A stretch of 64,000 nt of DNA from Brachyspira hyodysenteriae ATCC 27164. GTDB taxonomy: Bacteria > Spirochaetota > Brachyspiria > Brachyspirales > Brachyspiraceae. Below, in pieces: positions 1,755 through 54,291 of the stretch; position 1 is the first letter of the stretch, and each line of letters begins with the position of its first letter. The translations under genes were made by a program, and so were the position numbers. Location: positions 1,736,001-1,800,000 of the forward strand of contig NZ_CP015910.2 of NCBI RefSeq assembly GCF_001676785.2, in the 5' to 3' direction. The notes beneath the pieces were generated by a model, which had not been told where the DNA came from, ran no database searches, and saw only the letters and a list, made by a program, of their open reading frames with translations.

Positions 1755-1781
1755 TTATCGGATATAGTTATGTTTACTTTA
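1755..1781 (-). promoter_or_regulatory. sigma-28 (FliA)-type promoter of fliF
   Basis: On the minus strand TAAAGTAA (1774-1781) is followed by exactly 11 bases and then TCCGATAA (1755-1762). The bacterial flagellar sigma-28 consensus is TAAAGTTT-N11-GCCGATAA, so 6 of 8 and 7 of 8 positions match with ideal spacing. Transcription would start near 1748, leaving a leader of about 27 bases that holds the fliF ribosome binding site. The match is seen directly; use by FliA is inferred. Confidence 0.65.
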
Positions 1782-53260: not shown

Positions 53261-53299
53261 AAAAAAATAAACCGCTTTTGTGGGATGAACAAAGCGGCT
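53261..53299 (-). terminator. intrinsic terminator of the candidate small RNA
   Basis: On the minus strand CCGCTTT and AAAGCGG (53,291-53,297 and 53,272-53,278 in plus coordinates) pair, extended by GT/AC past a bulged A. The tail reads TTTATTTTTTT. No minus-strand protein gene lies immediately upstream: rplT and its terminator are at 54.3 kb and the genes between are on the plus strand. Confidence 0.75.
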
Positions 53300-53339
53300 T
53301 ATTACAAATATAGTTATTGGGGGGTAGTCCAATCAACTA
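53261..53339 (-). ncRNA. candidate sigma-28-dependent small RNA
   Basis: Between a sigma-28-type promoter and a strong intrinsic terminator, about 80 bases carry no credible protein start (no ATG, and only a TTG frame without a ribosome binding site). On the minus strand the RNA would fold into a short hairpin AUUGG-loop-CCAAU (53,316-53,333) with the loop ACUACCCC, then an AU-rich linker, then the terminator hairpin with the loop UUCAUCCCAC. C-rich single-stranded loops of this type are used by sRNAs that pair with Shine-Dalgarno sequences. This is seen in sequence plus inference; no known RNA family was recognised. Confidence 0.55.
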
Positions 53340-53345
53340 AATATA

Positions 53346-53372
53346 TTATCGGCCGCTTGGCAATTAACTTTA
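53346..53372 (-). promoter_or_regulatory. near-perfect sigma-28 (FliA)-type promoter
   Basis: On the minus strand TAAAGTTA (53,365-53,372) is followed by exactly 11 bases and GCCGATAA (53,346-53,353). Compared with TAAAGTTT-N11-GCCGATAA, 15 of 16 positions match. A transcript would start near 53,339 and run into the terminator at 53,261-53,299. Confidence 0.75.
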
Positions 53373-53458: not shown

Positions 53459-53599
53459 ATGAAATCAAAAAATAATGTATCAAGAGAAAGTTTTACATTC
53501 AAACAAAATGAAAACGTAAAAAAACAAGTATCAAATATTATATCAAATTTCAATAATGTAAATAAAAATCAAAATTCAAATACTAAAAAAGATAAGTAA
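53459..53599 (+). CDS. 46-residue hypothetical protein
   Basis: A short ORF of 46 codons with a strong AAGGAG site eight bases before the ATG. The product is hydrophilic, rich in asparagine, lysine and serine, with no hydrophobic segment. Its stop is two bases from the start of the following membrane protein gene, so the two are probably translated from one transcript. No family recognised. The ribosome binding site and tight spacing support it as real. Confidence 0.6.
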   Translation: MKSKNNVSRESFTFKQNENVKKQVSNIISNFNNVNKNQNSNTKKDK

Positions 53600-53601
53600 A
53601 A

Positions 53602-54291
53602 ATGGATTTTTCATCTTTAATAACTGTTATAATATTTATTTTACCTGGATTTATTATTATAACTGTTAAAAATTTATACAGTTATGTAAAAAAAATAAAT
53701 ACTTTTTCAAAAATACTTCAATCATTAATTGCTACAATTTGTATATGGTATATTATTATAATATTATCTAATTATAATAGCAATTTAAACAATATTTTTA
53801 ATATATTATTAAAATTAGAAAAAACTAACTTTTTAGAATATAAGTTCCAAATTTTTACTTTTTTTATTATAGTTTATTTAGTATCTTTTATATTAGGATT
53901 AGTAATAGGATATTTGCTTCATAGATTAAAATTTATAGAAAAATTATATAATAAAATATATTATAAAATCTTTTCAAAAAAACCTACTAAACATATTTTT
54001 GAACATATATTTTATGAAGCTAGTTTAGATAAAAATAAGAATATATATGTATTCATAAAAACTATAAGCGGAGAATATATTTTTGGATTTGTAAAAGAAG
54101 CAAGTGATAATATAGATGATAGAAGTATATGTATATATGATGTGCATCAAATTAGAAATAAACAATTAATAGAAACACTATACAAAGAAAATAATTTTAT
54201 TTATATAAAAGAAAATTCAATAGAATATATTTATATATTAAATGATATTTCAGATTTAGAAAAAATATGCAATTATTTAATTAACAAATAA
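53602..54291 (+). CDS. membrane protein, DUF6338-like
   Basis: A 229-residue protein with hydrophobic helices near 5-25 (containing ILPGF), 38-58 and 80-110, followed by a soluble C-terminal part (about 130-229) of beta strands such as YVFIKTISGEYIFGFVKEAS. The layout, with an early PGF motif and a small C-terminal beta domain, resembles DUF6338 proteins, but this is a tentative match. It follows the 46-aa ORF by two bases, and the terminator after it works mainly for the opposite strand. Function unknown. Confidence 0.65.
   Translation: MDFSSLITVIIFILPGFIIITVKNLYSYVKKINTFSKILQSLIATICIWYIIIILSNYNSNLNNIFNILLKLEKTNFLEYKFQIFTFFIIVYLVSFILGLVIGYLLHRLKFIEKLYNKIYYKIFSKKPTKHIFEHIFYEASLDKNKNIYVFIKTISGEYIFGFVKEASDNIDDRSICIYDVHQIRNKQLIETLYKENNFIYIKENSIEYIYILNDISDLEKICNYLINK

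Follow-up and report, generated by a model that had tools for sequence, protein, structure and literature searches.

FliA (sigma-28)-dependent small RNAs (sRNAs), which an earlier note on the DNA analysed here had mentioned from other flagellated bacteria, are indeed documented in Campylobacter jejuni and Escherichia coli. The C. jejuni RNA CJnc170 (FlmR) is FliA-dependent, unprocessed and 47 nt long; it has been proposed to feed back on flagellar genes, the flagellin gene flaB among them, and its overexpression shortens filaments (PMC11187230). In E. coli, UhpU, MotR, FliX and FlgO are sigma-28-dependent, and UhpU, MotR and FliX alter flagellin levels and contact fliC mRNA (PMC10578931). Contacts with 3′ untranslated regions (3′UTRs) have a precedent in icaR, for which an sRNA binding the 3′UTR is speculated to stabilise mRNA circularisation and a UCCCC anti-Shine-Dalgarno motif is described (PMC7821165). 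In spirochetes, the reason for several flagellar filament proteins has been called a longstanding question, and the flagellin genes of Treponema denticola are divided between sigma-70 (flaB1 and flaB3) and sigma-28 (flaB2) (PMC9481697). No regulatory RNA of Brachyspira was found in the literature searched, a body of work with most subscription journals outside its scope.

Here we analyse a locus within a 64-kb stretch of the Brachyspira hyodysenteriae chromosome (the window). Comparison of genomes leads us to propose, at a probability of roughly 0.7, that it encodes a sigma-28 (FliA)-dependent, free-standing, trans-acting sRNA that acts chiefly on the mRNA of one flagellin gene, flaB-a, and represses its translation late. 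If so, a late, FliA-made RNA aimed at a single flagellin would provide a testable link to the filament-protein question.

An RNA gene behind a sigma-28-type promoter

The earlier note had singled out, on the minus strand, a sigma-28 motif followed about 80 bases on by a strong terminator, with C-rich hairpin loops and no credible protein start between, and each of these observations held. The motif TAAAGTTA-N11-GCCGATAA (53372-53346, minus strand) is the sole exact match in the window and arose in none of 100 shuffles; allowing up to three mismatches gives 3 sites in the window against 1.5 expected. A terminator hairpin followed by seven T (53267-53261) closes the predicted transcription unit, whose start was placed by its distance from the −10 element and whose end was placed by the terminator (Table 1). 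With a folding energy of -21.4 kcal/mol (z = -4.7), the predicted RNA exposes ACUACCCC as the loop of hairpin 1 and UUCAUCCCA as the loop of the terminator hairpin, and in most lineages loops 1 and 2 of the sRNA are predicted to be single-stranded. No ORF of at least 50 aa overlaps the RNA, and a TTG-started frame that crosses it is not conserved. It thus ends in an intrinsic terminator and is non-coding, as a trans-acting sRNA is. Rfam covariance models at gathering score gave no match in the 64-kb window. The genome encodes FliA (TIGR02479, 255 bits, above cut-off) and, by weak detection, a FlgM-like protein. The RNA gene and the conservation of its promoter can be read from the genomes directly, and the gene is probably transcribed from that promoter under FliA control.

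Table 1 Features of the sRNA locus (window positions) and of its proposed target gene (genome:contig:positions).
Feature	Position	Strand	Basis
−35 element TAAAGTTA, sigma-28-type promoter	53365..53372	minus	Exact motif match; TAAAGTT in 27/28 aligned promoters
−10 element GCCGATAA	53346..53353	minus	CGATAA in 23/28 and CGATAT in 5/28 promoters; spacer free
Small RNA gene, ~78 nt	53261..53338	minus	Near-invariant in 24 Brachyspira genomes; order-wide by covariance models
Hairpin 1, AGUU-G-AUUGG / CCAAU-AACU	53312..53338	minus	Predicted fold; unrelated stems with the same loop elsewhere
Loop 1 seed ACUACCC	53322..53328	minus	Complement of flaB-a Shine-Dalgarno region GGGUAGU
Linker and terminator 5′ arm, CUAUAUUUGUAAUAAGCCGCUU	53292..53313	minus	Complement of flaB-a 3′UTR
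Terminator hairpin	53268..53300	minus	Predicted fold; compensatory changes among genera
Loop 2 seed UCAUCCC	53282..53288	minus	Complement of flaB-a leader hairpin loop GGGAUGA
Terminator T run, 7 T	53261..53267	minus	
flaB-a	G000:C1:2651030-2651863	minus	FlaB-type flagellin

Two further sigma-28-like sites were seen. One (TAAAGTAAACATAACTATATCCGATAA, two mismatches, window positions 1755-1781, minus strand) precedes by 60 bp a long ORF that begins MQDFINKLTSQIKNIFSK and has a FliF-like sequence. The other (TAAAGTATTAAATTAAAGAACCGATAA, G000:C1:831623-831649, minus strand) has a G/C-rich stretch (GGGGGAAATCACCC, GCACCCCCCG) after it and stands 354 nt before a 765-aa ORF.

Loops kept while stems change across Brachyspirales

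The sRNA is present in 24 of 26 Brachyspira genomes, and both genomes without it are ~85% complete. Twenty-two of the 24 copies share a single sequence of ~77 nt, whereas the regions on either side of it and the promoter spacer change without restraint. The promoter hexamers themselves do not: of 28 aligned promoters, 27 keep TAAAGTT and every one has CGATAA or CGATAT, across an unconstrained spacer of 13-15 nt. A homolog outside these 28, in G073, has TAAAGTT and CCGATAG at shorter spacing, and a sigma-28-type promoter precedes the sRNA in all five genera of the order. Neighbouring genes differ, with rplT near the sRNA in some genomes only and other genes in other genera, which marks the sRNA as a free-standing gene; with its own conserved promoter and variable neighbours, it is not embedded in a flagellar mRNA. 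Beside the window copy, the plus strand (53459-54291) carries a 46-codon ORF and, immediately after it, a gene for 229 aa whose match to DUF6338 is borderline; this pair lies between the sRNA and rplT here, and in at least one other genome the end of rplT is near the sRNA.

DNA similarity and covariance models extended the family beyond Brachyspira to two further genera of the same family (g2, genomes G065 and G073; g3, genome G146) and to a second family of Brachyspirales (G150 and G162), which the first covariance model reached unaided (E 3e-4 and 1e-3). A second model, trained on the divergent homologs and therefore giving E-values that are not independent for its training members, matched 29 of the 31 genomes of the order, among them every one of the 26 good-quality genomes (completeness of 90% or more, contamination of 5% or less). 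A gapped motif spanning linker and loop 2 matched 17 times across 84,980 named species, always in Brachyspira (among them B. pilosicoli, innocens, hampsonii, catarrhinii and alvinipulli) or uncultured spirochetes. A 393-genome sample of the phylum held no convincing homolog outside Brachyspirales; a candidate in G104 (E 0.009) was rejected as lacking the C-rich loops, and a BLAST match in G229 as apparently unrelated sequence. No IMG/VR contig contained the exact pattern. A second match in G073 (C11:33213-33288, minus strand) was likewise set aside, having neither C-rich loop and no sigma-28 promoter; it resembles the linker and terminator (ACUAUAUUUAUAAUAAGCCGAUUC) and could be a relic or chance.

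What the divergent copies share is the loops. Stems are swapped among genera (AGUUGAUUGG, AGUUGAUUUUUG, GUGGUA), while ACCC in loop 1 and AUCCC in loop 2 are kept across the order, with AUCC for ACCC in loop 1 of G073 as the exception. Loops conserved on changing stems are a signature of trans-acting seeds.

A single flagellin mRNA complementary at three sites

In most Brachyspira genomes, a 26-nt query stretch from the sRNA had another match elsewhere. This second site is the reverse complement of the linker and lies between the stop codon and the terminator of a FlaB-type flagellin gene, flaB-a. The pattern CTTATTACAAATNTA likewise occurs once as the sRNA and once more in most Brachyspira genomes, with a reversed control almost absent; additional matches exist in G003, G012, G013, G014 and G016, the one in G003 within another gene. 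A survey of flaB-a 3′UTRs in all Brachyspira genomes except G003 and in three further genera found the site in every genome examined except G019, where it is degraded, and in a changed register in G162; in G150 the sRNA is present and no flaB-a was found.

The linker and terminator arm are complementary to ~20 nt of the flaB-a 3′UTR. In G000, this duplex has a predicted energy of -29.1, against a mean of -10.8 (sd 3.7) and a best of -22.3 for 58 window genes, and the flagellin paralogs b and c score about -12, within the null range. Shuffled 3′UTRs reached the observed energy in 0 to 3 of 500 trials in seven lineages. Cognate pairing exceeds the best cross-genus pairing in G146 (-31.8 vs -21.5) and G162 (-30.0 vs -19.6), an advantage that is weak or absent within Brachyspira and g2. 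The 3′UTR of G162 has lost the linker complement and has acquired 15 nt that would pair perfectly with loop 1 and the adjoining flank. In the predicted structure, the linker lies partly inside the terminator stem, and the full 3′UTR duplex can form only once this stem is opened.

The other two predicted contacts lie at the 5′ end. The flaB-a leader contains a hairpin with an invariant GGGAUGA loop on a stem with compensatory changes at six pairs, and this loop is the complement of loop 2: UCAUCCC faces GGGAUGA in Brachyspira, UUAUCCC faces GGGAUAA in g2, and nine pairs form in G162 (CCUAUCCCG with CGGGAUAGG), whose leader has two extra GGGAUA motifs. Loop 1 (ACUACCC) is complementary to the flaB-a Shine-Dalgarno region GGAGGGUAGU. 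In G000, that duplex scores -16.3 (59 window genes: mean -3.6, best -14.1; paralogs: -5 to -10); G162 forms 12 perfect pairs, G146 has a shifted contact (UACCCUCC with GGAGGGUA), and G065 and G073 retain the helix through wobble pairs. Paralogs b and c are without the sRNA pairing sites. Outside G162, both leader contacts are just 6-8 bp, lengths that are not unusual by themselves; in whole-leader shuffles, 0 to 8 of 500 matched the observed pairing in five lineages, and the test was not significant in G065 and G073. In Brachyspira and g2, GGGUAGU also has a predicted cis partner, ACUAUUC, which gives the conservation of the Shine-Dalgarno stretch a second possible cause. The resulting hairpin ACUAUUC-AUGGA-GGGUAGU, directly upstream of the flaB-a start codon, displays a CsrA-like GGA in its loop, and the sRNA would disrupt it. 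Leaders of paralogs b and c have small GGA-loop hairpins of their own (GGCACGGAUGCC; GUUCAAGGAUGGAC), with AUGGA or similar at the Shine-Dalgarno sequence, as in CsrA sites.

Because the target windows were picked for complementarity, pairing percentages are biased, and two-sided changes, cross-genus energies and paralog controls are fairer evidence. In a joined alignment of the three contacts, five pairs changed on both sides, the covariation score exceeded that of all 500 shuffles, and slid registers collapsed. The two-sided changes fall in the linker/3′UTR and loop 2/leader helices, with none in the Shine-Dalgarno helix: sRNA base first, a loop 2/leader C-G pair is replaced by U-A, a linker G-C pair by A-U in G146, and a terminator-arm C-G pair by A-U in the genomes outside Brachyspira. 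With a conserved, exposed seed and compensatory changes in its partner, the RNA is, as judged by its sequence, a trans-acting base-pairing sRNA. Complementarity, covariation and specificity against paralogs are properties of the genomes, and together they point to probable pairing in the cell. Two outcomes that the earlier note had named as refuting its proposal, loops not conserved and promoter hexamers varying freely among relatives, did not arise. The sRNA proposal of the earlier note is thereby supported more strongly than it had claimed; the linker/3′UTR element, the target and the wider distribution had escaped it.

Proposed function and alternatives

In the genomes examined, the flaB-a promoter is sigma-70-like (TTTACT, about 16 nt, TATAAT); paralog c has the −10 element CCGATAAT. 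A sigma-28 sRNA acting on a sigma-70 flagellin implies feedback from the late class to the early class. In the mechanism that we propose, completion of the hook-basal body would free FliA from FlgM and the sRNA would build up; its loop 2 would kiss the loop of the flaB-a leader hairpin, loop 1 would pair with the Shine-Dalgarno region, and a long duplex with the 3′UTR right after the stop codon would be formed by the linker, or by loop 1 in the second family. The docked sRNA would then stop ribosome loading on flaB-a mRNA. The outcome could be late feedback on an early flagellin, or a filament composition moved towards sigma-28 flagellin; either way, the sRNA probably tunes the making of internal flagella. 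The earlier note had anticipated a coupling of motility to other genes; the target found, flaB-a, is itself a flagellar structural gene. The timing in this scheme is what we infer from the promoter classes. A bolder version, which we hold tentatively and at somewhat worse than even odds, has the sRNA clamp both ends of flaB-a mRNA (leader loop, Shine-Dalgarno region and 3′UTR), looping the messenger without Hfq as part of an order-wide sigma-70/sigma-28 switch of periplasmic flagellins. The G000 genome gave no match to the Hfq family PF17209, in a search whose control matched 5 of 14 known genomes; this genome lacks a Pfam Hfq match yet carries a conserved, apparently trans-acting sRNA.

If the pairing occurs, repression is the somewhat likelier sign, because loop 1 covers the Shine-Dalgarno sequence. 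The same RNA on the same target could instead activate or stabilise flaB-a if it protected the 3′ end of the mRNA and either unfolded the Shine-Dalgarno hairpin or drove CsrA off its sites, and so couple flagellin output to the finished hook. That the strongest and best-supported contact is with the 3′UTR is in keeping with such an effect, as sRNAs at 3′UTRs can activate (Spot 42 on hilD; PMC7821165), and so is the invasion of the cis hairpin, whose AUGGA loop resembles the CsrA sites proposed near flagellin Shine-Dalgarno sequences in T. denticola (PMC9481697). We consider activation unlikely, however, given that loop 1 would sit on the Shine-Dalgarno sequence right beside the start codon and that pairing as extensive as that of G162 would block ribosomes. 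It is improbable that the flaB-a 3′UTR is instead a sponge that titrates the sRNA away from its main targets, other mRNAs with G-rich ribosome binding sites. The 3′UTR duplex is the longest contact, and many GGGUAGU-plus-ATG sites, some recurrent between genomes, exist in Brachyspira; yet these sites are not commoner than a reversed control pattern, and a pure sponge needs neither the matches in the leader and Shine-Dalgarno region of the same mRNA nor the covariation of the leader contact. The suggestion in the earlier note that the C-rich loops address G-rich ribosome binding sites holds for one loop, loop 1, which fits that of a flagellin; with GGGTAGT-ATG sites at control frequency genome-wide, we claim no further targets. 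One such site, in a FlaA-like gene, was discarded as lying inside the coding sequence, away from the Shine-Dalgarno sequence.

Readings that dispense with flaB-a as the target fare worse. Were the RNA to act on a protein, for instance by titrating CsrA through GGA, the flaB-a complementarity would be coincidental or secondary. A UUGGA at the foot of loop 1 in Brachyspira copies and the CsrA-like GGA hairpins of flagellin leaders fit that idea, but the RNA has one GGA at most, missing in G065, G073 and G162, rather than the multiple GGA loops of the CsrB/RsmY type, and titration has no place for sRNA-mRNA compensatory changes; we regard it as very improbable and reject it as the main role. Least probable of all is a leader or attenuator of a downstream gene, or a small-protein gene. 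An EamA transporter gene does follow on the same strand about 225 nt further on, but a strong terminator intervenes, the sequence directly downstream is unrelated among genomes and rplT is nearby in only some. The TTG-started frame enters the terminator, is thrown out of register by a deletion in G003 and does not occur in the divergent homologs, and because it is not conserved we reject a small peptide. Repression of flaB-a by a FliA-dependent sRNA thus remains our preferred reading; its repressive sign we infer from the position of loop 1. If true, a three-point contact across both UTRs would be unusual among the architectures of bacterial sRNAs. Divergence of the sequences inside the order supplies ready-made compensatory mutants.

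Comparison with known systems

A close likeness is to CJnc170, also a short FliA-dependent RNA with a suggested flagellin target. The proposed targets of CJnc170 are RpoN-dependent class II genes, and the description considered here mentions no flagellin mRNA contacted at three sites with the 3′UTR among them (PMC11187230). The E. coli set is UTR-derived and Hfq-associated, and MotR and FliX pair within coding sequences (PMC10578931); in contrast, the Brachyspira sRNA is free-standing in a host with no Pfam Hfq match, and its predicted contacts are in the leader, the Shine-Dalgarno region and the 3′UTR. For icaR, the anti-Shine-Dalgarno motif belongs to the mRNA's own 3′UTR, whereas here the sRNA holds complements to both mRNA ends, and the hosts and genes are unrelated. 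CsrA control of flagellin addresses the same regions, leader and Shine-Dalgarno sequence, but is protein-based (PMC9481697), whereas the Brachyspira sRNA is an RNA complementary to comparable regions of one flagellin only. No compared system combines these features, and we therefore class the sRNA as a new RNA family that, as far as searched, appears confined to the order Brachyspirales.
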